From assembly GCF_003860405.1 (NCBI RefSeq), contig NZ_CP034170.1, positions 2,170,001-2,234,000 of the forward strand: a stretch of 64,000 nt of DNA. Reading direction: 5' to 3'. Under the pieces are notes generated by a model. The model did no database searches, was not told the DNA's origin, and saw only the letters and a program-made list of their open reading frames with translations. Below, in pieces: positions 36,200-48,326 of the stretch (within the stretch, counting starts at the first letter, position 1; each line of letters begins with the position of its first letter). Source of the stretch: Nakamurella antarctica (GTDB lineage: Bacteria > Actinomycetota > Actinomycetes > Mycobacteriales > Nakamurellaceae). A program made the translations under genes and the position numbers.

Positions 36200-36751
36200 T
36201 CACGGACCTTCCCGAAACTCGCCGACATGCAGGGTGTAGACACCAGTTACCGTGTTGCGTGAACAAGTCACAGAGGTCGGCACTCCTGGCAGCGTCACTA
36301 TGGTGATGACACATACGTCATACACCGAGCCCGCCGTGAGGTCGGGGTTTCGGTCAGGCGCAGAGCCGCAGTCCGCCCCAGGTTCGACGAACCGCAGGCG
36401 TAGCCCATCCGGCGGGATGTTCTGGTCGCTGAGCGCTGTGATCGACACCAGGCTCGCTCGCTGCAGGCCGGTAGGAAGATCGGGCGCTGTGTCGATCACT
36501 TGAGCGGCGTCCCTGGCCGCCTGCGCTACGGCGAAGGTGCCCGCTTGCAAGCGGAGAACAGCAATCAACAGATAGATGACGGGAATCATCAGAACCACCG
36601 CCAACACGAGAACCTCAATCAGTGCGCGCCCGCTGTCGGGTTGACCACCCTGGCAGGCGGGTTCCTGGCAGGCGGGTTCCTGGCACGCGGCTGGGGAAGC
36701 CCCAGCGGAAATCACAGTGGCGCAGATTGGGCTATCTGCAAAGCTGCTCAT
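36200..36751 (-). CDS. TadE/TadF-like minor pilin (Rv3654c type)
   Basis: A 183-residue protein with a Cys-rich N-terminal segment made of a short repeat (EPACQ-type units), then GRALIEVLVLAVVLMIPVIYLL, a single helix as in TadE/F pseudopilins, and an extracytoplasmic domain with three Cys. The GxxxIE-type sequence before the helix is a likely prepilin processing site. Position matches Rv3654c, the last gene of the tad cluster, and its start overlaps the preceding tadE gene by 4 nt. Confidence 0.75.
   Translation of the reverse strand: MSSFADSPICATVISAGASPAACQEPACQEPACQGGQPDSGRALIEVLVLAVVLMIPVIYLLIAVLRLQAGTFAVAQAARDAAQVIDTAPDLPTGLQRASLVSITALSDQNIPPDGLRLRFVEPGADCGSAPDRNPDLTAGSVYDVCVITIVTLPGVPTSVTCSRNTVTGVYTLHVGEFREGP
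36655..36694. repeat. 15-bp tandem repeat inside the TadF-like gene
   Basis: The unit GGCAGGCGGGTTCCT occurs about two and a half times and encodes the repeated EPACQ segment ahead of the membrane helix. Confidence 0.7.
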
Positions 36752-37263
36752 CCCGGAATCTCAAGAGCAGAGTGACCAGTCACCGATATCTCGGGCATCA
36801 AGCCGTCAAGAACACCCACAATGCCCGGCGCTTGCATGGTGCATTCCACTCGCGCCATCAATCCGTCGTTAGAGATATTGCATCGCAGCGTGTCTCGGGT
36901 CGCGCCGGTAATCCCGCCACCGAGGGACGCTCCCACCGCCCCCGTCACGTTACTGACGTGACTGCCCGCCAATCCGGCCGAGTGCGCGGTTTCGACCGCC
37001 GCAGAGGTAAGAAGTGTGCGGCTGTAAGCCCACAAGCAGATCTGGACCAGACTGAGAAAGAGCAGCATCAAAACCACGATGACCAAAGCGAACTCGGCCA
37101 CTGACGAACCTCTATCCACCGAACTTTGCTTGCTCGCAAGGTCCGCGCTGGAGGCTTCGTCGGTTGGATCCGTGACGCTGGCGGCATCAGTATCGATGGC
37201 GCCGTGACACTCTTTCCATCGCGAGTGAGCCTCGAAACTAGCCGGTGATGTTGGCAAATGCAC
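36748..37263 (-). CDS. TadE-like minor pilin (Rv3655c type)
   Basis: The central helix SSVAEFALVIVVLMLLFLSLVQI is a TadE-type signal/anchor with the Glu five residues into the hydrophobic stretch. The external part has two Cys (LRCN, VECTM). The frame opens at 37311, but the GTG at 37263 reduces overlap with the Flp gene to 26 nt. No start has a clear ribosome site. It probably caps or primes the Flp pilus. Confidence 0.78.
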   Translation of the reverse strand: MHLPTSPASFEAHSRWKECHGAIDTDAASVTDPTDEASSADLASKQSSVDRGSSVAEFALVIVVLMLLFLSLVQICLWAYSRTLLTSAAVETAHSAGLAGSHVSNVTGAVGASLGGGITGATRDTLRCNISNDGLMARVECTMQAPGIVGVLDGLMPEISVTGHSALEIPG

Positions 37264-37474
37264 TTCGCACAGCTTCTTCCACTGCCGGGCCGAACACGGC
37301 AAGGAGTCCAATCACCACGATCGACGTCATGACGGTGATCATGACCCAACCGGGCACGTCTCCGCGATCGACGTCGTCATTCCCGACGCACTTTTCCTTT
37401 TCCGCGGTCGCGACATGCTTGATGAGCAGCAAAGTCCGGACAAACCCGAGGGCAAAACGGTCTTTCAATGGCAT
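37238..37474 (-). CDS. Flp-type pilin, DUF4244 family (Rv3656c type)
   Basis: The 78-residue product has a charged N-terminal leader, then DRGDVPGWVMITVMTSIVVIGLLAVFG, a single hydrophobic segment as in actinobacterial Flp pilins. Small size and position between tadC and the tadE-like gene match Rv3656c. AAGGAG lies about 6 nt upstream of the ATG. Confidence 0.82.
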   Translation of the reverse strand: MPLKDRFALGFVRTLLLIKHVATAEKEKCVGNDDVDRGDVPGWVMITVMTSIVVIGLLAVFGPAVEEAVRSAFANITG

Positions 37475-37507: not shown

Positions 37508-37591
37508 TTATCCAGCAATGGTGGTAATGGCAATCAGCCCGGGATACATGGCGAACAAGATGGTGGTGGGGAGAACGAGGAACACCACGGG
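37508..37591 (-). pseudogene. 3' fragment of tadC (left junction of the integrated element)
   Basis: On the minus strand this stretch reads PVVFLVLPTTILFAMYPG and ends in GLIAITTIAG and TAA, the last helix and C-terminus of a TadC protein. It has no start of its own. The 5' part of tadC stops after MMVPA near 46100, so the two pieces were one gene before the element inserted. Confidence 0.85.
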
Positions 37592-37617
37592 TGTCAATAG
37601 TGATCTAAGGTGTCTTT

Positions 37618-39036
37618 ATGACCGAGACCGTTAGAGGCGCGATCTACGCCCGAATCAGCAGTGACGCCGAAGGGTTCGGACTCGGTGTGCAACGACAGAC
37701 CGACGACTGCAGGTCCGCTGCATTGAAGCGAGGCTGGAAAGTCGAAACCATCTACACCGACAACGATGTCAGCGCCACGCGGTCAAAGGTCCGCCCCGAG
37801 TATCAGCGGATGCTGGCCGATATTGCTGCAGGCCGCATCACCGGCGTGATCGTCTGGGACGTGGACCGGCTGACCCGCACACCGCGCGAGCTAGAGGACA
37901 TAATCGACCTTGCCGACCGTCAGGGACTCTCGCTGGCGAGCGTAGGAGGAGAGATTGACCTATCGACGCCGCAGGGCAGGATGACCGCCCGAATCAAAGG
38001 CACCGTGGCAAGGCACGAGACAGAGCAGCAATCCCGACGACTACGGCGCAAGTTCCAAGAGAGAGCCGAAGCTGGGAAGCCACACAGCTTTGCCGCCTAC
38101 GGTTACCGGCGTATCAACGAGTTTGACGACCGAGGACACCGCGTCAACACCCGCGACGAGCTAGACCAGGAGCAGGCCGCAATCGTCAGGCAGGCAGCAC
38201 GGTTGCTACTCGCTGGGCAGTCGCTCCGCGCGGTGACGACAGAGCTAAACACGCAGGGTGCGTTATCGCCACGAGGTAAGCCGTGGGCAAGCGCAACGCT
38301 GAAACAGATCATGGTCCGAGATCGCAATGCTGGCCTACGCACTCACCGAGGCGAGATCATCGGCAAGGGACAGTGGCCGCCGATCTATGACGAAGGCACC
38401 CACGACCGGGTAGTCGCACTCCTGACCGACCCGAGCAGGCGCACGAATAAAGGCACCGCCCGCAAACATCTGCTCACCGGCCTGGCGCGTTGTGGTCTAT
38501 GCGCCGGACCCATGGTCGTGAACATCGGCAGGGTGACAGCGGACGGCAGACAACCCTCCGCCTATACCTGCCAGCAATGCACCCGCATACGCCGCAAACA
38601 GTCCGCAGTCGATGAAGTAGTAGAAGGCGTGATGATCGCCCGACTGACTAAGCCCGATGCCCTGAGCGTCCTTGCGGCTGGAGATCCCGAGGAAGCCGAA
38701 CGAGCCGCCGCTGAAATGGCCGCGCTGGGCGCAAGGCTGGAGCTGGCCGCCGACGAATATGCCGAAGGCAATCTGACCGGCCCACAGTTGAAACGAATCA
38801 CCGCGAACCTACGCCCGAAGATTGAAGGGCTGAAGTCGGTTGTCAGTTCGCACTCCCCCGCGCCGGGATTGCTGGATCTCGTGGGAGACAAAGCACTAGA
38901 GCGCTGGCACCTTGCGCCGCTGGAGGTCAAGCGGACCGTAATCGACCTATTGGCGACTGTAACGATCATGCCGACGGGATCTGGCAAACGGTTCGACCCT
39001 GAGCTGATCAAAATCGAATGGAAAGCGAATGGTTAA
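37618..39036 (+). CDS. Large serine recombinase (integrase)
   Basis: The 472-residue protein has the resolvase domain first (YARISSD with nucleophile Ser14; LGVQRQTDDC; VWDVDRLTR; GEIDLSTPQGRMTARI). A recombinase domain follows (about 180-290), then a zinc ribbon (CGLCAGP ... CQQC), and a coiled-coil-like C-terminal part. It should integrate and excise the element between attP and the tadC site. phiRv1 integrase has the same layout and nearly the same length (469). Confidence 0.95.
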   Translation: MTETVRGAIYARISSDAEGFGLGVQRQTDDCRSAALKRGWKVETIYTDNDVSATRSKVRPEYQRMLADIAAGRITGVIVWDVDRLTRTPRELEDIIDLADRQGLSLASVGGEIDLSTPQGRMTARIKGTVARHETEQQSRRLRRKFQERAEAGKPHSFAAYGYRRINEFDDRGHRVNTRDELDQEQAAIVRQAARLLLAGQSLRAVTTELNTQGALSPRGKPWASATLKQIMVRDRNAGLRTHRGEIIGKGQWPPIYDEGTHDRVVALLTDPSRRTNKGTARKHLLTGLARCGLCAGPMVVNIGRVTADGRQPSAYTCQQCTRIRRKQSAVDEVVEGVMIARLTKPDALSVLAAGDPEEAERAAAEMAALGARLELAADEYAEGNLTGPQLKRITANLRPKIEGLKSVVSSHSPAPGLLDLVGDKALERWHLAPLEVKRTVIDLLATVTIMPTGSGKRFDPELIKIEWKANG

Positions 39037-39421
39037 GAGGCAGAAGGTCACCATCATCTGCAACGCCAAATCCCACGAAGGAAACGAAGTCTACGTGGAC
39101 CGGCTCATGGTGACTCACTATGCGCCACGCCCGTGGGCCGGTGCCTTCGGTTCGCCGTACTCAGTACCGATGTATGGCGACACCACACACCTGGACGCCG
39201 CCGACCAAACACTCAGCGAGAGTCAGATATTCGGGAGCAGCGAGCGAGCACCCGATCAGGAGCTAAGTAAGCGAATCACGAGGAGGCGCACGACGTTTCG
39301 CTGCAAATTATGCGGATTGAACGTGCAAGTGAGGGAAGAAAAACTCGACAAACTGATGGCGAGTCTGGAAGCCCTAAAAATTGACACCGTGACCCTAACC
39401 ACTCTTGCTGCTATCCTATGA
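39029..39421 (+). CDS. Hypothetical phage-element protein with a C-terminal Cys pair
   Basis: The 130-residue protein overlaps the integrase gene by 8 nt. It contains FRCKLCGLNVQVREEKL near the end, a half zinc ribbon. I do not recognise the family. Confidence 0.65.
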   Translation: MVKRQKVTIICNAKSHEGNEVYVDRLMVTHYAPRPWAGAFGSPYSVPMYGDTTHLDAADQTLSESQIFGSSERAPDQELSKRITRRRTTFRCKLCGLNVQVREEKLDKLMASLEALKIDTVTLTTLAAIL

Positions 39422-39522
39422 AGCAGTGGGCGAGTAGTAGCGCCCACTCTGGCCTAAATCTTTAACTGGACTACTTCACTCAAGTCGGTCATCGCCGGCA
39501 GGTTCACCCTGCCCTGGAGACG

Positions 39523-39753
39523 ATGATGACGACCGAATCCCCAAACTGGCGTTCGCTCCGCGCGAGCGTTGCATCTCTCACGAGATCTCGAAAGCCGGAC
39601 GATCCCGCATTACTGGACGCCCGCCGCAACCTCCGCACCGAACGGCTTGCTGACTATATCCGCGAGACCGTAGACGCAGCACCACCTTTGACTCAGGATC
39701 AGCGCGACCGTCTGGCCGTCTTGCTCCGAGGCGGTGCATCTGATGCTTCCTGA
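39523..39753 (+). CDS. Small conserved protein of actinobacterial integrated elements
   Basis: The 76-residue product contains LDARRNLRTERLADYIRETV and APPLTQDQRDRLAVLL, a pattern often seen upstream of replication genes in actinobacterial integrated elements. Function unknown. Starts at 39523 and 39526 are equivalent. Confidence 0.7.
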   Translation: MMTTESPNWRSLRASVASLTRSRKPDDPALLDARRNLRTERLADYIRETVDAAPPLTQDQRDRLAVLLRGGASDAS

Positions 39754-40291
39754 AAACAGAAAAGGCACCCCGGCGAAGGGTGCCCAATCCGAAAACTTAG
39801 CTGACGAAGCCACTTTCAACGATAGCGATTATTTCGCGCTCGTGGCCGAGGCCGAGAAGGGTTACGTCCTCGCACTGTTCCAAGTGCCGATCTCGCAAGT
39901 CGTCAATCTGGCGACCATCCCGGAACCGGGATTCTTCCAAGACCCGTTATGCGGCATGGCTTATCTGGCAATTGTTTCGACGTTCGCCGCTGGAATCCAG
40001 CCCGATCTGGTGACCGTCGCTGAAACCATCCGCCGCGAGTCAATCGAGATCCCCGAAGTCCTACGGTCACGACTGATTCCCTGGATCGCTCATCTGGCCG
40101 TACACGCCCCGGTGCCGACGGCGTGCCAGTTCTACCGCGATCTGGTGAGGCATTACCGCCGAGCAGCAATGGTCACCGCTGCAGGCGAGCGACTGATCCG
40201 CGCAGCACGGACCCTAGCACCGGAGGATCTGCCAGTTGTATCGGAGATCGTCTCAACTGACTTACTGGCGATCTTTGCGGTGACGAAATGA
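39743..40291 (+). CDS. DnaB N-terminal-like protein
   Basis: The protein (182 residues from the ATG at 39743) has a helical domain like the N-terminal domain of replicative helicases (DPLCGMAYLAIVSTFAAG ... DLVTVAETIRRE ... CQFYRDLVRHYRRA). No helicase domain follows. It overlaps the preceding gene by 11 nt and the DUF3631 gene by 4 nt. A role in replication of the excised element together with the ATPase is inferred. Confidence 0.7.
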   Translation: MLPENRKGTPAKGAQSENLADEATFNDSDYFALVAEAEKGYVLALFQVPISQVVNLATIPEPGFFQDPLCGMAYLAIVSTFAAGIQPDLVTVAETIRRESIEIPEVLRSRLIPWIAHLAVHAPVPTACQFYRDLVRHYRRAAMVTAAGERLIRAARTLAPEDLPVVSEIVSTDLLAIFAVTK

Positions 40292-41658
40292 CCGGCAACT
40301 TTGCGCCGGATGCGCCGTCCGCGCCGGATGCGCCGGTTACTTTCCGACCCCCTAGTCAAACCGGCGCACCGCTCCTGGAGGAGGTTCGCCAGTGGTTCGC
40401 GACCTACATCTGCACCATGACCGAGGCCGACCTGGACCTGCTCACGTTATGGGCCGTGCACACTCACGTTGCGACCGAGACCTACACCACCCCAAGACTC
40501 CTGATCGACTCTCCGGTCCCTGGCTCCGGTAAGACGACCGTGCTGGAGCACCTGAGCCGCTTGTGTCTCAACGCGGTGCAAATGGCGTCGTTATCGTCGC
40601 CAGCGTTACTCGTTCGGATGCTCGACGTGGGAATGCGAACGATCCTTATTGACGAAGCCGACCGAAGCCTTAACCCGGCGAAGGAGGGTATCGCTGAGCT
40701 GTACGCGGTATTGAACACAGGTTACAAAAAAGGTGGATCAAGGCCGGTGCTTGTGCCCGTCAAAGGTGGCTCCTGGGAAGCGCAAGAAATGAGCACGTTC
40801 TCCCCCGTTGCCATGGCCGGCAACGCGCCACAGTTGCCAGACGACACCCGCGAGCGCGTGATCCGCGTCCTCCTCCTGCCCGACGTCCTGGGCGTCGTGC
40901 AGGAAAGCGACTGGGAACTTATCGACGACCCCGCGAAGGAACTAGGCGCACGAATAGTCGCCTGGACAGATGAGGTTCGAGACTTCATCCGAGCCAATAG
41001 GCCGCCGCTGCCCGAGATCGTCAAGGGCCGCGCCCGCGAGCGCTGGTCACCACTCATGCGGGTTGCTACCGCTGCAGGAGGCCGCTGGCCCGAGGCAGTG
41101 CGACAACTGGCAATCCACGATGTCGAACGAATCCAACTCGAACGGGAGGAGGGCATCGTGCAGGAAAAGCCCGCCATCGCCTTACTCCAACACACAATCA
41201 ACATCTGGCCCGAGGAAAAGAACTTCATCTCCACCGCATCTTTGATCGACCGCCTGATCCAAAATCACCCGAAAACATGGGGAGCAGAATCCGCGTTCGG
41301 TAAGCCACTGACAGCGCAGCGGCTCGGCAAGATGCTCGTTACATCGTTCAACGTGCACTCAATCCGACCTGACCGGGAAGGCCCACGCGGATACTCCAAA
41401 GTGAGTTTCGAGAAGGTCTGGCGAGGTATGGGAATCACCCGCGCCGGTTCGGATGACCCTCTCAAAGTAACCGGCGCAAGTGGCGCGACCGGTGCAAGTG
41501 GCGCAGAAACAGCGCAACTGGAGATCCCCGACCCGTTAGTTATTCCTGAGCCGATCGCCGCGTTCGTGTGCACGATCTGTCGCTCCGAGACGGCGTTCAC
41601 GCTGCAGAAAACCGATGCCGGTATGGCTTGCCGCAAGTGCCACGGAGCGAACCGGTGA
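40288..41658 (+). CDS. DUF3631 ATPase (Rv1582c-like)
   Basis: The 456-residue protein has Walker A SPVPGSGKTT (about residues 75-84), Walker B TILIDEAD (about 118-125), and sensor-like GNAPQLPDDTRERV. The DUF3631 domain spans roughly residues 180-390, and a C-terminal zinc ribbon (CTICR ... CRKCHG) follows. phiRv1 and other actinobacterial elements carry the same gene in the same place, where it is thought to serve replication. It starts at an ATGA overlap. The tail before the zinc ribbon has a GASGATGASGA repeat. Confidence 0.88.
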   Translation: MTGNFAPDAPSAPDAPVTFRPPSQTGAPLLEEVRQWFATYICTMTEADLDLLTLWAVHTHVATETYTTPRLLIDSPVPGSGKTTVLEHLSRLCLNAVQMASLSSPALLVRMLDVGMRTILIDEADRSLNPAKEGIAELYAVLNTGYKKGGSRPVLVPVKGGSWEAQEMSTFSPVAMAGNAPQLPDDTRERVIRVLLLPDVLGVVQESDWELIDDPAKELGARIVAWTDEVRDFIRANRPPLPEIVKGRARERWSPLMRVATAAGGRWPEAVRQLAIHDVERIQLEREEGIVQEKPAIALLQHTINIWPEEKNFISTASLIDRLIQNHPKTWGAESAFGKPLTAQRLGKMLVTSFNVHSIRPDREGPRGYSKVSFEKVWRGMGITRAGSDDPLKVTGASGATGASGAETAQLEIPDPLVIPEPIAAFVCTICRSETAFTLQKTDAGMACRKCHGANR

Positions 41659-41843
41659 CCCGCCAGCGACCGACCGAGGCGACCCTAGTTAGCGCCATAA
41701 GCCCGACCGGCGAGGTCGCCTATTGCCGCTGGTTTATCCACCACGACGCCGCGTCCGCGAGAGCCGAGGAGCTAGCCCGCCGTGGGTTAGAAGTCTCGGT
41801 GAGCAGCACCGCCGCCGACTGGCGACCGGCGGTGACCCGGTGA
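41655..41843 (+). CDS. Small phage-element protein
   Basis: 62 residues starting at a GTG that overlaps the ATPase stop (GTGA). The core reads GEVAYCRWFIHHDAASARAEE. No family recognised. The coupled position in the operon supports a real gene. Confidence 0.6.
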   Translation: MTRQRPTEATLVSAISPTGEVAYCRWFIHHDAASARAEELARRGLEVSVSSTAADWRPAVTR

Positions 41844-42145
41844 GCTTCCCGGTCCCGATTAGGCCAACCGCCCGAGCTGCCTGGGCCGTGCTGCAGTCAG
41901 TGCTGGCCGACGTCGAATGGCGCGTGCCCTGCTCGGCTGATCCTTGCCAGTGGGATACCGACGGAGCGTCCGAGGAGCAGCGGGAAGTCGCCGCGTCCAA
42001 GTGCTGGCCGTGCCCCGCGATCACGCAATGCGGTGCGTTCGCTGGAGCCAACCGAGAAGTGCACGGCATCTGGGCAGGGCACGACAGAAGCAAATTACAG
42101 GGCCGCAAGGCCGCCAAAACTAAGCGCACCGAGGAGACGAAATGA
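41840..42145 (+). CDS. WhiB-like iron-sulfur regulator
   Basis: The 101-residue product has four Cys in WhiB-like spacing (a first Cys in VPCSADP, then CWPCPAITQC) followed by HGIWAGHDRSK, the G[VI]W turn, and a basic tail KLQGRKAAKTKR. WhiB proteins bind a 4Fe-4S cluster and the main sigma factor. Phage-borne copies often modify host transcription. An extra Cys lies in DPCQW. It starts at a GTGA overlap. Confidence 0.85.
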   Translation: MSFPVPIRPTARAAWAVLQSVLADVEWRVPCSADPCQWDTDGASEEQREVAASKCWPCPAITQCGAFAGANREVHGIWAGHDRSKLQGRKAAKTKRTEETK

Positions 42146-42375
42146 GAAAAAGATCGACCCAACAAACCGCGCAAGTCCGGGTGATCGGACACCGCCACAA
42201 GTGGGCCGCGTTCGTTGCCGTGAGAGCTGGCGAGGAGGAGGTTCGCGTGCGATGGATTCACCGGCCAACTGACGATAGCTGGCGATGCGACGTGCACGGC
42301 GCATCCCGAGATCCGATCTGCCTGCACAGTTTCGCCGCGTCCGAAGCCGCAACCTATTCACTGGAGCTCAAATGA
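42142..42375 (+). CDS. Small phage-element protein
   Basis: 77 residues starting at an ATGA overlap with whiB. Basic N-terminus (RKRSTQQTAQVRVIGHRHKW), then a WRCDVHGASRDPICLH segment with two Cys and two His that might bind a metal. Family not recognised. Confidence 0.6.
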   Translation: MRKRSTQQTAQVRVIGHRHKWAAFVAVRAGEEEVRVRWIHRPTDDSWRCDVHGASRDPICLHSFAASEAATYSLELK

Positions 42376-42704
42376 CAGTCACCCCGAACTACATGCTCGT
42401 TGACGACGACGGCGCGCCGCTGGGCATGGTGGACCCCGAAGCGATCAGCACCGCTGGCGCTCGGCTCGCGTTCGAGTTCGCAAACGCTTGCGACGACCAG
42501 GACGCCCTCAACCAGATCACCGCCCGCTACATCACGGAAGCCGGACCCGCAGGTTTCGGATACGTCGCTACCGCCGCGCTGAGCATCATCACCACCGTCG
42601 TGCTGTCCGGCGTCCTGGCCGTCACCGACGCGCTCGGCACCGATATGCGGACCGGAATCAAAGCACTGGCCGAAGGCCGCGACCCGAACGAGGAGACCAA
42701 ATGA
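42372..42704 (+). CDS. Small phage-element protein with one hydrophobic helix
   Basis: 110 residues, ATGA start overlap. An acidic N-terminus is followed by a hydrophobic helix (VATAALSIITTVVLSGVLAV, residues about 65-84), so it may be a membrane protein. Function unknown. Confidence 0.6.
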   Translation: MTVTPNYMLVDDDGAPLGMVDPEAISTAGARLAFEFANACDDQDALNQITARYITEAGPAGFGYVATAALSIITTVVLSGVLAVTDALGTDMRTGIKALAEGRDPNEETK

Positions 42705-42925
42705 CAACCGACCCAAGCGACCCCGTTGCCGAGTTCCGCCGCCTAGTGGCCGGAAGGAAACTAACCGTCATCTTCCCCGGAGATCTGGTGGAGATAGACG
42801 GATTCCCGGACGGCATGACCGCAAACCGCGTCCTGGAGACCACCGCCGACGCCGACGGCAACTTACTGCCGATCTGGGAAGAAACCGAGAACTACATCAG
42901 CACCACACAAACCGAGGAGATCTGA
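42701..42925 (+). CDS. Small acidic phage-element protein
   Basis: 74 residues, ATGA start overlap. Acidic, soluble, family not recognised. It is the last link of a chain of overlapping genes that starts at 39523. Confidence 0.6.
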   Translation: MTTDPSDPVAEFRRLVAGRKLTVIFPGDLVEIDGFPDGMTANRVLETTADADGNLLPIWEETENYISTTQTEEI

Positions 42926-42926
42926 A

Positions 42927-43397
42927 ATGCCAGAGAACACCACCACCGAAATAGTCACCGCCGAAGTCGTCACCGAGCTACCGGAGCCGATCGAACAAGA
43001 CCAGCTCGACACCGACGACCAGGACACCGACGCCGACACCGCGAAGGCAGGAGCCGAGGCCGCGAAGTATCGGGCACGCCTACGGGCCACCGAAGCGGAG
43101 CGCGACGGACTGGCAACCCGGTTGGAAGCGTTGCAGCGCAGCGAGATAACCCGGCTGGCCTCAAAGGAATTACTACAGGGCGAAGCGATCTGGGCAAGCG
43201 GTAAAACCGTGGCCGACCTGATCGACGACGACGGGAACATCGACCGCGAAAAGGTCAAGGCAGCCGCGACCGAAGCCGCCGAAAGGTTCGGACTCAAACC
43301 AGCCCTCACGTGGCCGAGGTCCGACCCATCACAAGGTGCGACGGGCAACCAGGTCGGCCGTGGCGAAAGTAGCTGGCAGAAGATCTTGGCGCAGTAG
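42927..43397 (+). CDS. Scaffold-like phage protein
   Basis: The 156-residue product is acidic and Glu/Ala-rich with a long helix (EAAKYRARLRATEAERDGLA) and ends in a Gly/Ser-rich tail. This is the usual look of head scaffolding proteins, and it lies just before the capsid gene as scaffolds do. The assignment rests on composition and position. Confidence 0.65.
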   Translation: MPENTTTEIVTAEVVTELPEPIEQDQLDTDDQDTDADTAKAGAEAAKYRARLRATEAERDGLATRLEALQRSEITRLASKELLQGEAIWASGKTVADLIDDDGNIDREKVKAAATEAAERFGLKPALTWPRSDPSQGATGNQVGRGESSWQKILAQ

Positions 43398-43407
43398 GCC
43401 CCAGAGT

Positions 43408-43458
43408 CAAACGATGGAGCAGGTTATCCGCAAGGACGACCTGCTCCATTGTCGTTTG
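43408..43458. promoter_or_regulatory. Long hairpin between the scaffold-like and capsid genes
   Basis: CAAACGA-TGGAGCAGGT (43408-43424) pairs with ACCTGCTCCA...TCGTTTG (43439-43458) with a three-base bulge. There is no T-run. It may trim or stabilise mRNA between the scaffold and capsid genes, or attenuate transcription. Confidence 0.6.
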
Positions 43459-43614
43459 CGATATGCTTGACCTGGTACGGATGCCGGATCTTGATGGTCC
43501 GCCCGTCCCACGAAGCCCCTGGAGGGCAACGCGTTCGGCCTGGAGCCGCCGCGAGGATAGTTCCCCAATTCCTCAAGGCGCGCAATGCCGCGCCGAGCAC
43601 ACACTGGAGTCACA

Positions 43615-44445
43615 ATGACTTTGTACAGCCCCCAAGCAAACGGATCGTTTCTGCCCTTCGACGTCGGCGCACTGATCGTCCAGCCCGTCACCACCGAATC
43701 CATTGCCACCCGAATCTCCACAGTCGTCAAGACCGGCGCGCAGACGTTCCGAATCCCCATCGTGAGCGCCGACCCCACCGCAGCGTGGACCGCCGAAGGC
43801 GCCGAGATCGCCCCGTCAGATCCCACTCTCACCGAGCTGATCGTCACCCCGAAGAAGCTGGCCGGATTGACCGTCATCAGCAACGAGCTGGCCCACGACT
43901 CCAGCCCTGAAGCCGCGAAGGTCGTAGGCGACGGACTGGCCCGAGACCTGGCCCGCAAAATTGATGCCGCATTCTTCGCTGCCACCACCGTGAACGGTCC
44001 AAGTGGCGTCAAGTCCCTGACCACCACCGTCGTCAGTGCGGGTGGAAACTGGAGCAACGTAGACCCGTTCACCGAAGCGCAGTACGCCGCCGAAGGAGCT
44101 GGCACCACTATCACCGCATTCGTGGCGAATCCTGCCGACGCGTTGTTGCTGGCAAAGCTGAAGGCCGCGACCGCGAGCAACCTCAACTTGCTACAGCCCG
44201 ACCCGACACAGGCCGGACGCCGCACCATCGGCGGCGTGCCGCTCTACATCAGCACCGCCGTCACCGTCGGCGAAGTCTGGGCAATCCCGCAAGACCGCGC
44301 ATTCGTCGTGATCCGCGAGGACGCAACAGTCACGGCTGACAGCAGTGTGTTCTTCACGAGCGACCGCGTTGCCGTCCGAGCAACGTTGCGTGTTGGGTTC
44401 GCCTTCCCTCAACCGCTTGGCCTGGTGAAGATCACCAAGGTCTAG
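43615..44445 (+). CDS. HK97-fold major capsid protein
   Basis: The 276-residue product has the HK97 capsid pattern: RIPIVSADPTAAWTAEGAE (E-loop side), KLAGLTVISNELAHDS, GLARDLARKIDAAFF (spine helix), and IGGVPLYISTAVTVGEVW near the end. It has no N-terminal scaffold (delta) domain, in keeping with a separate scaffold-like gene upstream. The ATG at 43615 has GGAG 6 nt upstream and is preferred to the frame opening at 43585. phiRv1 also carries a capsid gene (Rv1576c). Confidence 0.9.
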   Translation: MTLYSPQANGSFLPFDVGALIVQPVTTESIATRISTVVKTGAQTFRIPIVSADPTAAWTAEGAEIAPSDPTLTELIVTPKKLAGLTVISNELAHDSSPEAAKVVGDGLARDLARKIDAAFFAATTVNGPSGVKSLTTTVVSAGGNWSNVDPFTEAQYAAEGAGTTITAFVANPADALLLAKLKAATASNLNLLQPDPTQAGRRTIGGVPLYISTAVTVGEVWAIPQDRAFVVIREDATVTADSSVFFTSDRVAVRATLRVGFAFPQPLGLVKITKV

Positions 44446-44490
44446 CCCTGACTATCTGACCGTGCGTCAAGCTCACCGCTGGCAGGAAGT

Positions 44491-44703
44491 ATGGATGGCG
44501 AGTGGCCTAACCATGGAGCCGCAGTGACCCATCCAGCGCACCGAGGGCAGACCCGACTCAGAGACTTAGAGCGGGTCTGCCTGGTGCAGATCGTGGACCT
44601 TGGCAGCACCCTAGGCGAGGTTCGTTCGTGGCTTAGGGACGACCTGAGACCCCCCCACCCACGGGAGGTGACCGTGACCTGCGGCGACTCCACCCGCTGG
44701 TGA
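44491..44703 (+). CDS. Possible small phage-element protein
   Basis: A 70-residue frame with AGGAAG 5 nt before the ATG, in a 313-bp gap between the capsid and terminase genes. A helical core (RLRDLERVCLVQIVDLGSTL) is plausible, but no family is recognised. It may not be expressed. Confidence 0.35.
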   Translation: MDGEWPNHGAAVTHPAHRGQTRLRDLERVCLVQIVDLGSTLGEVRSWLRDDLRPPHPREVTVTCGDSTRW

Positions 44704-44758
44704 GCTGTCTCAGATCTTTGGCACTGCTCAGCACTCAATTTTCAACCTAGGAGACGAC

Positions 44759-45130
44759 ATGCAAACCCTTGCACCATCTGGTCTGGCCGCTCGAGGCCGG
44801 CAGTTCTGGGAGACCACAAACCAGTCCTACGACCTCACCGAATCCGAGCTGGCCCTGCTCACCGAGACGTGCAGAACGATGGACAACCTCGACGCCCTGG
44901 CCGCCGCGATCAAGTCCGAAGGCGCAATGACCGTTGGATCCACTGGGCAGCTAGTCGTCAATCCGGCGCTCACCGAAGCGCGTGGACAACGGCTGGCCCT
45001 GCACCGACTGATCGCTTCCCTGGCACTGCCTGACATCGACGGGGCGACCGTGAACAAGGCATCCAGCATCCGAGGCAAGACAGCCGCTAAGGCACGCTGG
45101 AATGGTCACGTCAAAGAGAGAGGCGCTTAG
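44759..45130 (+). CDS. P27-type phage terminase small subunit
   Basis: The 123-residue protein resembles P27 small terminases, which recognise packaging sites: GLAARGRQFWETT, LLTETCRTMDNLDAL, NPALTEARGQRLALHRLIASLALP. GGAG lies 6 nt upstream of the ATG. phiRv1 encodes a similar protein (Rv1578c). No large subunit is present, so packaging would need a helper's motor. Confidence 0.75.
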   Translation: MQTLAPSGLAARGRQFWETTNQSYDLTESELALLTETCRTMDNLDALAAAIKSEGAMTVGSTGQLVVNPALTEARGQRLALHRLIASLALPDIDGATVNKASSIRGKTAAKARWNGHVKERGA

Positions 45131-45132
45131 CT

Positions 45133-45495
45133 ATGGCGCGACTACGCGAACCAGAGCAATCGACACCGACCGCCGAATCTGTCCCCGCAGCATTGAAAGA
45201 TCCGATGGGATCGACCGTCTGGCGTCAAACCGCGACCTATGACCGTTGGTGCCGAAAGTATCTTGGCAAAACGATCAAGCTCCACTCCGAGGGCACTTAC
45301 TGGCGCTACGACGCCGCTATGACCGAATGGTGCCGACAGAATGGCCTCATGTCCGAGCGCTTCCCGACGCATGTGGACTATCAACGCGCCAAAGACGCGG
45401 GTATCGGCAAGCTCGGAGCGCTACGCCGAAGCCAACTCAACTGTGAGGACGGCAATTCAGACGCGATCCGATTGGTCCGACCGCCGAAAATCTAA
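45133..45495 (+). CDS. Hypothetical phage-element protein
   Basis: 120 residues, 2 nt after the small terminase gene. Rich in Trp, Arg and Lys (YDRWCRKYLGKTIKLH, RYDAAMTEWCRQNGL). Family not recognised. A DNA- or head-related role is only suggested by position. Confidence 0.65.
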   Translation: MARLREPEQSTPTAESVPAALKDPMGSTVWRQTATYDRWCRKYLGKTIKLHSEGTYWRYDAAMTEWCRQNGLMSERFPTHVDYQRAKDAGIGKLGALRRSQLNCEDGNSDAIRLVRPPKI

Positions 45496-45557
45496 CCCAG
45501 AACGCAGAACGGACCCCGACCGCGTGATGCAGTCAGGGTCCGTTTCGTCGTTTGGTT

Positions 45558-45869
45558 CTACTTGTTCAACTGCCAGCCTAGAAGGTGGTTCGCGAGAGCG
45601 ATATCCTGCTGCAGTTCCACCGCCATGGCCCGATCCATAATCAGGTCTGGCATCTCCAGAAGAATAAGAGCAGGCCCATCTGAAGTCGGCTTCTGGACGT
45701 GATCCTCTCGCCAGTAAATCTCTACATGCTTACCGGCGTAGCCCTCGTGATTACGGTAGAACTCGTCACCATCAAATATCCACTTGTGCTCATCGGGCGG
45801 GATCTGGCACCACGCTGGCTCGGTGTCGTTTGCGGTAGCGGGCGAAGGAATTACTGGAGCCTGATTCAT
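45558..45869 (-). CDS. Hypothetical phage-element protein
   Basis: 103 residues from the ATG at 45869 (a GTG at 45872 is also possible). Acidic, with EIYWREDHVQ and a helical C-terminus (LQQDIALANHLLGWQL). It overlaps the stop of the preceding small gene. These two are the only leftward genes of the element and may belong to a lysogenic transcript. Confidence 0.65.
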   Translation of the reverse strand: MNQAPVIPSPATANDTEPAWCQIPPDEHKWIFDGDEFYRNHEGYAGKHVEIYWREDHVQKPTSDGPALILLEMPDLIMDRAMAVELQQDIALANHLLGWQLNK

Positions 45870-46036
45870 CACGCACCTGCCGCAATCTCTGGTTCTGCTG
45901 CATTGACTACAGGTGGCCGTGCTTTGATCTCCTCAATCTTGGCAATCGCCGCGTCCCGAGCAACCTTGCTGAGATAGACGCGCTCCGCCCTGGTGAGCAC
46001 TGTTCCTGGTGGCAACGGGATTCTAAAGACTGGCAT
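45869..46036 (-). CDS. Small phage-element protein (55 aa)
   Basis: Reads MPVFRIPLPPGTVLTRAERV, then YLSKVARDAAIAKIEEIKAR, and ends in AAGA. GAGAGAGG lies about 7 nt before the ATG. Its TGA overlaps the next ATG by one base (TGATG). Function unknown. Confidence 0.65.
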   Translation of the reverse strand: MPVFRIPLPPGTVLTRAERVYLSKVARDAAIAKIEEIKARPPVVNAAEPEIAAGA

Positions 46037-46084
46037 GGTGCGACCTCTCTCTGGAGCGGCTTAGTTGCCGCATACCGAGAGAAA

Positions 46085-46951
46085 CTACGGGTAGTTGACA
46101 GCTGGGACCATCATGGCGATTTCCTTGCGGCCCCCGGCTTCCATAAGTTCTCGCTTGCCAAGCGCACGAACGTCTGCGGCTTGCGCCCGGAGCACGTCTG
46201 CCAGCGGCGTGCCACGCTCTATCGCCACAGCCATTCCGTCCAGAAACCGGGAGAACGGTTCGAGTCGAGCCCTATCGCGCGCTGAGGTGAGTGCCTCCAG
46301 CAGTGGAGTACCTGAGCGAGTGTCGGCCAGAATCGCGGCGAGCTGACTTACTAGGGCTCCACGCGCCAGTTTGGTGATTCGCTCGATTGCTCCAGCAGGG
46401 CCTTCACCCGCTGTCACTGCCAGAGCCAACATTTCGGCAATTACCGGAAATTCTGCGAGGATTTCAGCGTCAATTTGCTGCACTTCCCGAGTCAACCAAT
46501 AGTCGCGCATCAAGACGCCGGTAGCACCGAACCCCACTGCTAGCAGCATCACGGCCAAGGGGTTAGCTGCAGCAATGAACACCGCCAGGAGCCCCGCTGC
46601 TATGCCCGCTAAAAACCCTAATGCCCCCCACAACACTTGATCGGCCCTGAATTGTTCGATTGTCATGGGCGAACCGGTGGCCTGCAGGCGGTTCTCCACG
46701 GACTTCCGGCCACCGAGCAAGGTATCTAATCGGCCGACAAATTTTTTAACTAAAGGTGCGCTCAGCTGACTCAAGCTGCTGCCCGATGTCGTTGCGCTCA
46801 GCAGCTTGGACGGTACGGGTGCATCCGCAAGATAGGGCGCGATCCTGTCGCCCAAACTCATTTTTCGCATGGGTGGCGCGAAGAAAATCAGGAGAAGTAC
46901 ACCGACGCCTACCGCTCCCCCTAACAGCATCCCCACCCAGGTGCCCGTCAT
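46085..46951 (-). pseudogene. 5' part of tadC, truncated by the integrated element (Rv3657c type)
   Basis: This type II secretion F-domain membrane protein forms the Flp pilus platform with TadB. The ATG at 46951 overlaps the tadB stop (ATGA). The sequence runs normally up to KRELMEAGGRKEIAMMVPA, then ends in VNYP and a stop supplied by the element. The missing last 27 residues, including a hydrophobic helix, remain at 37508-37591. The 288-residue product might be partly active, but the loss of the final helix makes that doubtful. Confidence 0.85.
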
Positions 46952-47802
46952 CGCAGGACCCGTTTCTCTACCGGCAGGCGACCGATTCTTACCATCAGTC
47001 GGTAGGCCGACACCGAGACGACCGCGCCAAAAGCCAGAATCAGCGTCCCAGTTGGTCGGTCGTAGGCTTCCAACGTCTCCCGTTGCGTCGCCAGCAGTAG
47101 CAAGACAAGCCAAGGCGCGCAGACTGCCATCCGAGCCGCGTTTACCGACCATGACTGCCGCGCGGTCAGCTCGGAGCGAGTCCGCGCGTCTTCGCGCAGG
47201 AACCCGCTCAGCGTGCTGAGCAACCGGCCCAGGTCCGTGCCGCCCACCTCTCGCGCTACTCGAAGCGACTCGCAGACTCTGTCCCCGATGGGGTCCGCCA
47301 AGGAGGCTTTGAGCCGGTCCAACGAATCGTTGAACCTTCCCGATGCTCGGTAGTCACTGCCAAAGCGCCTAAATGGTTCGCGAATCGACTCGGGACCGCG
47401 CGAACCAACGGCAGCCAGCGCTTCGGGCAGCGAAAGACCAGCGCGCACACCAGATGTCAAATTGTCAACGACCTCCGGCCACACCTCGCGTAGATCGGAC
47501 TGGCGTCGATTACGTAGGCGCACGACCCACATCCGAGGAAGCACCGCAGCAAAGAGACTGAAAATGGCTGACACCGAAAGCGAACTTGTCGCGACCACCA
47601 CCACCGCAAAGCCCAGGATTCCGCTTCCAAGTTGAGCTAGGTGCAAGTGGATCGGTTGCATCCGTGGCAAACCTGCTTGCTGCAAAGACTCCCGCAGCCG
47701 GTCAGCGCGACGATGAACGCGGTGGCGACGTGGCCGGTTGCTAAGCCCGTGCCAGATGAGCAGCAGCCCGACCCCCGCCACCAGACCTATAAACGCCCCC
47801 AT
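46948..47802 (-). CDS. tadB: Pilus assembly protein TadB (Rv3658c type)
   Basis: A 284-residue membrane protein with an N-terminal helix, a second hydrophobic region, and the F-domain (EVWPEVVDNLTSGVRAGLSL, FRRFGSDYRASGRFNDSL, REVGGTDLGRLLSTLSGFL), then two C-terminal helices. The frame is open to 48192, but the ATG at 47802, preceded by a G-rich run with AGGA, gives the usual length and start. It is translationally coupled to tadC. Its normal upstream neighbour, the CpaF gene, is 27 kb away and inverted. Confidence 0.85.
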   Translation of the reverse strand: MGAFIGLVAGVGLLLIWHGLSNRPRRHRVHRRADRLRESLQQAGLPRMQPIHLHLAQLGSGILGFAVVVVATSSLSVSAIFSLFAAVLPRMWVVRLRNRRQSDLREVWPEVVDNLTSGVRAGLSLPEALAAVGSRGPESIREPFRRFGSDYRASGRFNDSLDRLKASLADPIGDRVCESLRVAREVGGTDLGRLLSTLSGFLREDARTRSELTARQSWSVNAARMAVCAPWLVLLLLATQRETLEAYDRPTGTLILAFGAVVSVSAYRLMVRIGRLPVEKRVLR

Positions 47803-48326
47803 TCCTGCCCCCCCCGCCGATACTGCTGTGTCACCCTCACGACACACTGCCAATATGACACCCCTAAAGAGGTAAGTAAAGGACGATTTTACGAAATGTG
47901 GATGACTCTGTGTAATAACAGCCCCGCCACTAGCCTGGAGCCACACGATGGTGTCGCCGACTTGAGCGGCCAGCCGAGTCCCTGAAACCGCGCGCACCAG
48001 CGGCTTTAGCTCTCTGATGGTCCGCCATTCAAGACATGCCACTCTCAGCTTGAAGCTGAGCTTTCCGATGCCAATGGCTTTGCCTCCTTGCGCTGCCACC
48101 GCTGCTGCACCTGCCGTGCCTGAAACCCATGCGGAAGTCCACCCCCACTGCCTCAAGGCCACTGGTATCGCGGTGCCGACTACACACCCCAAGACTCAGC
48201 GTTCGGCGGGCATATCGATATCGAGCTGTACTCGGACCTACCTCGAACGGGGCGACTCCCCCGGGATTTAATGCGGGCAACAACGCGGGTGGGGCCTCTG
48301 AGCCCCACCGCGTAAGCTCCACAGTT
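47803..48326. other. Intergenic region between divergent tadB and prfB
   Basis: About 520 bp without a supportable gene. The minus frame of tadB stays open to 48192 but shows no recognisable domain. A near-perfect palindrome CTCAGCTT-G-AAGCTGAG lies at 48044-48060. A possible tadB promoter reads TTTACT, 17 bp, CATATT on the minus strand (about 47856-47884). An inferred inversion breakpoint falls here. Confidence 0.5.

Follow-up and report, generated by a model that had tools for sequence, protein, structure and literature searches.

How does a mobile element come to lie inside a gene for a bacterial pilus, and what may it gain by breaking that gene? The question is raised by a 64,000-nucleotide stretch of DNA (hereafter the window; contig NZ_CP034170.1, positions 2,170,001 to 2,234,000), in which tadC, an assembly gene of the Tad/Flp pilus, is cut in two by an element that carries a large serine integrase. 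In this paper we looked at the cut gene, at the same site in related genomes and at the genes that adjoin related integrases, about half of which begin in or beside tadA, tadC, comM or comEC. On balance we favour the reading, by analogy with known cases, that the element disables a pilus for DNA uptake and is thereby protected from being deleted by transformation, which would be a Tad variant of a known strategy.

The split tadC gene and its counterparts in relatives

The N-terminal piece of tadC ends in KEIAMMVP followed by AVNYP and a stop, which puts the break point between MMVP and VVF. The tail, (P)VVFLVLPTTILFAMYPGLIAITTIAG and a stop, is found 8.5 kb from this piece, with its last 26 residues at 37588 to 37511 and the stop reaching 37508, and it starts ~30 bases from the start of the integrase (37618). 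From its sequence this tail is probably the missing C-terminal membrane helix. Integration takes the last 26 residues off TadC and parts flp, tadE and tadF from tadBC. The TadC search gave only this one match in the window's genome, and no second copy was found there.

When 61 related genomes were searched with TadC, 46 gave a match, and 30 tadC loci were read, including those of all 17 genomes of the genus. In 27 of the 30 the frame passes the break point as PVVF and reaches its full length at 305 to 311 residues, counted from where the match begins; the remaining three (the window, G001 and G012) stop there, at MMVP or MMMP. The first-pass annotation of the window had proposed that an integrase-bearing element splits tadC, with relatives whose tadC naturally ends at VNYP as the case that would speak against it. 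The split is confirmed by these loci, and no such natural end occurs among the 30. Within the genus the site is occupied in three of the 17 genomes, the window included, and empty in 14.

The tail is also seen at the far end of the insertion in G001 (17.9 kb), in G012 (14.4 kb) and in Arthrobacter sp. NIO-1057 (~9.5 kb), a named record that was reached via the integrase search and shows the same tadC split. Since the missing tail lies beyond the insertions in these three genomes, the split is an insertion and not chance. An artefact of assembly or annotation could be suspected with one assembly per species; it is hardly credible, given that the window's genome is a single 3.38-Mb contig and that further genomes, among them a named record, have the same join. 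Identical tadC codons are hit in G001, G012 and NIO-1057, and in G504 and G496 the integrase lies beside the site, with one side seen. The best reading of these sequences is that the serine integrase uses the tadC site as its attB.

The elements at this site differ in size and cargo among the window, G001, G012 and NIO-1057, and the integrase may be at either end. For example, the element of G012 carries a large terminase and a tape-measure gene, that of G001 a tape-measure gene, a small terminase and a WhiB-like gene, and that of NIO-1057 a primase. The two tape-measure genes, of 1229 aa (amino acids) in G012 (L071:12730-16416, + strand) and 1785 aa in G001 (L073:9548-14902, - strand), stand in elements that are only 14-18 kb long. 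The TadA match of G012 (G012:C1:1532441-1533064) spans profile positions 72-273 only, in an open frame of 299 aa, and this gene may be damaged too.

Genes next to related integrases

In order to see where such integrases lie, relatives of this one integrase were surveyed in three sets of genomes: 150 relatives, of which 35 had a match at 1e-40; the order, with 58 of 397 genomes at 1e-60; and the class, with 31 of 394 at that same threshold. For order and class no more than four candidates per genome were scored, so the integrase totals are at least these numbers. Flanking DNA was available for 104 loci, which are 101 places at 1e-60 (71 and 30 new ones, window included) together with L069, L070 and L221. 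As the target we took whichever gene lay no more than 400 bases from where the integrase starts. It was assigned by tblastn with the host's own TadA, TadB, TadC, Flp, ComEC and ComM, an assignment that superseded a longest-frame reading and then a codon-composition-weighted one. L132 and L215 fall outside the distance rule and were added by reading their matches; L194, with tadA 0.8 kb from the integrase, was left uncounted.

The neighbours of the integrase start were tadA in 19 loci, tadC in 11, comM in 12 and comEC in 8, 13E12/HNH repeats in 17 (a circular class, with queries built from the surveyed loci themselves), and other or unknown places in 37. Hence 50 of the 104 related integrases begin beside or inside one of the four genes, or 49 of 103 without L221, whose inclusion is biased as it was chosen for its tadB neighbour. 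The class-wide sample alone gives the four genes in 11 of its 30 new loci. What tadA, tadC, comEC and comM share is, by analogy with studied species, natural transformation.

Both halves of the gene are present in the flanking DNA of four tadC cases and eight tadA cases (L076, L077 with L078, L130, L132, L137, L195, L210 and L216), and the rest are one-sided. A Pfam test of eight comEC and comM fragments supported seven, one of these only below the cut-off: Competence for L079 and L160, DUF4131 (below cut-off) for L134, ChlI for L136, L141 and L198, and Mg_chelatase for L163; the fragment of L133 had no Pfam match. For the decoys, which were 37 other open frames of the window, no match adjoined the integrase in any of the 104 loci, though at least eight of them matched somewhere; these decoys were unmatched for conservation or dispensability. 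A second control used 142 clusters of other frames from the surveyed loci, of which 36 matched somewhere and 10 near the integrase start. It adds little, because the ten, by reading only, are shadow or antisense frames of tad and com genes, TadE beside the tadC tail, or TadA paralogues.

Related integrases occur in pairs in G319 (L145 and L147; tadC and comM), G271 (L134 and L141; comEC and comM), G039 (L075 and L176) and G256 (L127 and L131), the last two with two tadA-like genes each. The ComEC match of G319 is partial (profile 1-118 of 270). Elsewhere, the neighbour of a related integrase at L154:10861-12348 is a gene that matches FtsK/SpoIIIE weakly and reads GATGSG at the break; it may encode a type VII secretion ATPase.

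A quick-search tree of 100 integrases (the fragments L174, L180, L192 and L213 excluded) places the tadC users in two separate clades. The first holds the window, G001, G012, NIO-1057, G504 and G496; the second holds five members of one other family, which cut tadC one codon earlier. The tree needs 8 label changes for tadA, 5 for comM, 4 for comEC and 7 for 13E12, where a change may be a gain or a loss and the label 'other' covers targets without a name. A tadA-type cut at Walker A occurs on three branches (seven rows; L075, L176, L210 and L216; L152 and L172), and other tadA-type breakpoints are at CEEVFEL in three lineages (L076, L137 and L195) and near residues 90, 148 and 323. Thus the second tadC clade and the tadA, comEC and comM branches display a convergent use of the transformation pathway by divergent integrases.

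A proposed loss of DNA uptake and its alternatives

Why should an element break such genes? In Micrococcus luteus the deletion of tadC, or of nearly every tad gene, abolished transformation, although the authors could not rule out polar effects; comEC was required as well (PMC4322843). That work supplies the function of the target; in the sections of it that we draw on there are two tad clusters and no mobile element is involved (PMC4322843). The insertion of mobile elements into comK, comYC, comFA, comM and comEC is established, and in the model of the same paper they avoid deletion by recombination with imported DNA (PMC4774983). As described for pneumococci, three prophages were deleted by transformation-mediated recombination, and more than 40% of isolates have a prophage at a transformation-inhibiting site (PMC12637031). 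In the window's host the three other transformation genes that we examined are kept as open frames (comEC 886 aa, comM 508 aa and tadA 407 aa). Based on the need for tad in M. luteus, on the protection model and on these open frames, we interpret the insertion as one that blocks a pilus for DNA uptake.

A mechanism that fits this reading is that the truncated TadC would be nonfunctional and the Tad/Flp pilus would not be built. If this pilus is, as in M. luteus, a part of the host's DNA-uptake machine, the occupied cell would no longer be transformable, and the element would then be safe from deletion via recombination with incoming empty-site DNA, which would be a benefit to the element. Excision, perhaps aided by a 76-aa protein encoded behind the integrase, would restore tadC in frame as the element leaves, and this restoration would be a by-product of the element's life cycle rather than a host switch.

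The main rival explanation, which we consider unlikely though worth serious weight, is a neutral choice of target: integrases need a sequence that is conserved across many hosts and lies in a gene that the cell can do without, as would suit tad, comEC and comM, and transformation would be lost only incidentally. It gains from the many tadA cuts at highly conserved motifs such as Walker A, from the 17 relatives at 13E12/HNH repeats and the 37 at other or unknown places, and from the four genomes (G319, G271, G039 and G256) in which two related integrases lie in transformation genes; such double insertions also fit neutral decay, because they are expected once transformation is lost.

Several further points weigh against a block of DNA uptake. 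Since relatives share descent, the 50 insertions represent far fewer events. For comEC and comM the flank that was read is the one on the integrase side, three comEC assignments have weak matches (L070, L133 and L220; E 5e-7 to 2e-5), and four of the 19 tadA cases (L131, L152, L172 and L176) match TadA at 35-44%, perhaps as paralogues. None of 12 relatives from IMG/VR has a tad or com neighbour, six of them having fewer than 150 bases before the integrase. Transformation in the host genus is itself taken by analogy with M. luteus. What speaks against a neutral choice is that a single pathway accounts for the genes hit by about half of the surveyed relatives, that a gene is entered at several sites and by separate integrase clades, and that the 37 other frames of the window gave no adjacent match at all.

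Another hypothesis is that the element destroys a pilus that serves rival phages as a receptor, and excludes them in this way. Pilus-dependent phages exist, and tadA and tadC are both pilus-assembly genes. Yet this would leave the relatives in comEC (the DNA channel) and comM (recombination) unexplained, and we regard receptor loss as very improbable.

The attachment site and the fate of tadC

Another question that is raised by the two tadC pieces is whether the insertion can be reversed. In tadC orientation, the sequences of the N sides end in ATGATGGTCCCAGCTGTCAAC (window), ATGATGGTCCCGGTCAAG (G001), ATGATGATGCCGGTCAAT (G012) and ATGCTCGTTCCTGTCAAG (NIO-1057), and the C sides begin with ATTGACACCCGTGGTGTTC (window), ATTGACACCGGTCGTCTTC (G001), GTTGACCCCCGTCGTCTTC (G012) and TTTACAGCCCGGTGGTATTC (NIO-1057). 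All eight sides have in common the CC of a Pro codon and, after one intervening base, a G. The element halves have the arms TTGAC and GTCAA in three of the four cases; the left arm of NIO-1057 is TTTAC. One option for the crossover is this CC, which each of the four element pairs has; the attP would then carry TTGAC...GTCAA arms in three of them. The other is the GT after CC, which is also common if the window's host had one extra Ala codon. The three extra bases at the far junction of the window may be either the element's own, with excision giving MMVPVVF as in the relatives, or an extra host codon, giving MMVPAVVF, and the reading frame is kept under either origin. Because both pieces share one frame, precise excision could restore the last membrane helix of TadC, as had been foreseen from the window alone.

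The first-pass annotation went further and proposed a possible pilus switch under the control of excision: once tadC is restored by a regulated excision, the pilus would be turned on, comparable to comK phages or the sigK skin element. Pieces that are in frame, an integrase frame that is open in the window and a conserved 76-aa protein that may drive excision speak for such a switch. However, an element that acts as a switch should be kept in the lineage. Among the 17 genus members the site is empty in 14 and filled in the others by elements unlike in size and cargo, which disfavours a switch. The relatives, moreover, disrupt comEC and comM, which have transformation, though not the display of a pilus, in common with tadA and tadC, and the three bases more than in the sister elements may upset the attP spacing. 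We therefore hold the switch to be improbable; the element more likely blocks DNA uptake than switches the pilus, because many of its relatives sit in other genes of DNA uptake or incorporation.

The element and its neighbourhood

The element, whose GC (guanine plus cytosine) content of 61% is the same as that of the window, looks like a small phage satellite and is a candidate for the type of the phage-inducible chromosomal islands (PICI), with an integrase and a major capsid protein but not a full phage gene set (Table 1). This likeness follows from the lack of any match to a portal, large terminase or tail protein among the element proteins scanned, the small frames at 41655-41843, 44491-44703 and 45869-46039 being outside the scan. 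The name phiRv1-like, which it had been given earlier, holds for its gene content, as a serine integrase and an HK97-type capsid are found within a small element. It does not hold for the target: phiRv1 integrates into a 13E12 repeat, whereas the site here is tadC, and users of 13E12 lie on other branches of the tree. Among its closest known systems are the phiRv1-type and other PICI-like elements described in mycobacteria (PMC10654092). It differs from the phiRv1 type in its target, and its host does not belong to a listed mycobacterial record. The named records and phages nearest to the window's integrase are Arthrobacter, Actinopolymorpha, Mycobacterium and Streptomyces phages, which make the host a probable actinobacterium.

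The 76-aa protein is a candidate recombination directionality factor. In 34 of the 104 loci (window included) the integrase is followed by this protein or a relative, at most 0.91 kb away and in 31 of them on the same strand. The protein is kept behind the integrase across elements with very different targets and cargo. Two uncultured contigs from IMG/VR, L268 and L269, also have a related integrase, a protein of the 76-aa type and an HK97-type capsid match, and L268 adjoins a 13E12-type gene.

In the window tadA does not adjoin tadB but lies elsewhere (Table 1), and the place upstream of tadB is taken by a + strand frame that, by eye, resembles release factor 2. The tadA gene is distant from tadBC and on the opposite strand in the window, and in 14 of the 17 genus members tadA and tadC are at least 12 kb apart on one contig.

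Table 1. Features of the element, its junctions and the tad genes in the window
Feature	Coordinates	Strand	Basis
Phage-satellite-like integrated element	37592..46102	.	~8.5 kb
Junction, integrase end	37589..37594	.	possible crossover at CC of Pro codon or following GT
Junction, far end	46100..46105	.	between CC and GTCAA; 3 bases more than G001, G012 and NIO-1057
Large serine integrase, 472 aa	37618..39036	+	PF00239 2.2e-32; PF07508 3.9e-12; phrog_95 4.5e-97
76-aa protein, candidate recombination directionality factor	39523..39753	+	no Pfam or NCBIfam match; weak phrog_24177
DUF3631 protein, probable replication ATPase	40288..41658	+	PF12307 2.9e-22
WhiB-like regulator	41840..42145	+	PF02467 3.7e-6; phrog comparison
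Probable scaffold	42927..43397	+	position ahead of capsid gene; weak phrog_7813 (function unknown)
HK97-type major capsid protein	43585..44445	+	PF05065 7.5e-29; TIGR01554
Small terminase subunit	44759..45130	+	phrog_1496 1.6e-20; Pfam and NCBIfam matches below cut-off
tadC 5' part	46085..46951	-	283 native codons to MMVP, then AVNYP and stop; PF00482 2.9e-10
tadC 3' part	37508..37591	-	shared Pro codon, 26 hydrophobic residues, stop; mean Kyte-Doolittle 1.9
tadB open frame, true start probably near 47808	46948..48192	-	PF00482 5.6e-9
Flp-like pilin	37238..37474	-	by eye; matches beside tadC tail in relatives
tadE	36748..37311	-	PF07811 1.2e-9
tadF-like minor pilin	36200..36751	-	by position; no Pfam match
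tadA (CpaF-type) motor ATPase, open frame 407 codons	18654..19877	+	TIGR03819 9.1e-78, below its cut-off

Known systems and significance

The closest known cases are the prophages and islands in competence genes, in which, as far as the source describes them, a mobile element likewise splits a transformation gene, orthologous integrases use the same site in other species and divergent integrases converge on one gene (PMC4774983). The examples given in its main text are streptococci, Lactococcus, bacilli, Listeria and proteobacteria, whereas here the genes are those of the Tad/Flp pilus, tadC and tadA, in probable Actinobacteria; the words 'tad' and 'actinobacteria' do not occur in that main text. 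The targets of large serine recombinases, the enzyme class of our element, are reported in the main text of another study to be enriched for competence genes, with a magnesium chelatase gene, which we take as the ComM family, for 12.4% of predicted site-specific integrases (PMC10083194). That main text contains neither 'secretion' nor 'type II', and its supplementary note on target genes, which is outside this scope, may name tad genes. The titles and abstract openings of the literature searched name neither tadC nor tadA as an attachment site (supplements outside scope), in agreement with the first-pass annotation, which knew of no such site in a pilus platform gene for phiRv1-type elements. 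As far as seen, then, insertion of mobile elements into competence genes and the enrichment of serine recombinases there are already known, and tadC and tadA are new as targets.

A wider claim, which we put forward tentatively and at a little less than even confidence, is that across Actinobacteria satellites and prophages with phiRv1-like integrases have evolved to hit every stage of transformation, namely the pilus (tadA and tadC), the channel (comEC) and recombination (comM), and that Tad is the general DNA-uptake pilus of the group. In the literature seen, tad-based transformation in Actinobacteria has been demonstrated in M. luteus. The recurrent insertion into tadA, tadC, comEC and comM would be independent genomic evidence for a wide role of Tad in actinobacterial DNA uptake, and it would extend the conflict between transformation and mobile elements to a new type of pilus. 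If the wider claim is true, the attachment sites of such elements would be a map of the machinery that threatens them. The finding also points to strains in which DNA uptake by Tad can be tested, and it offers new attachment sites for serine integrases.

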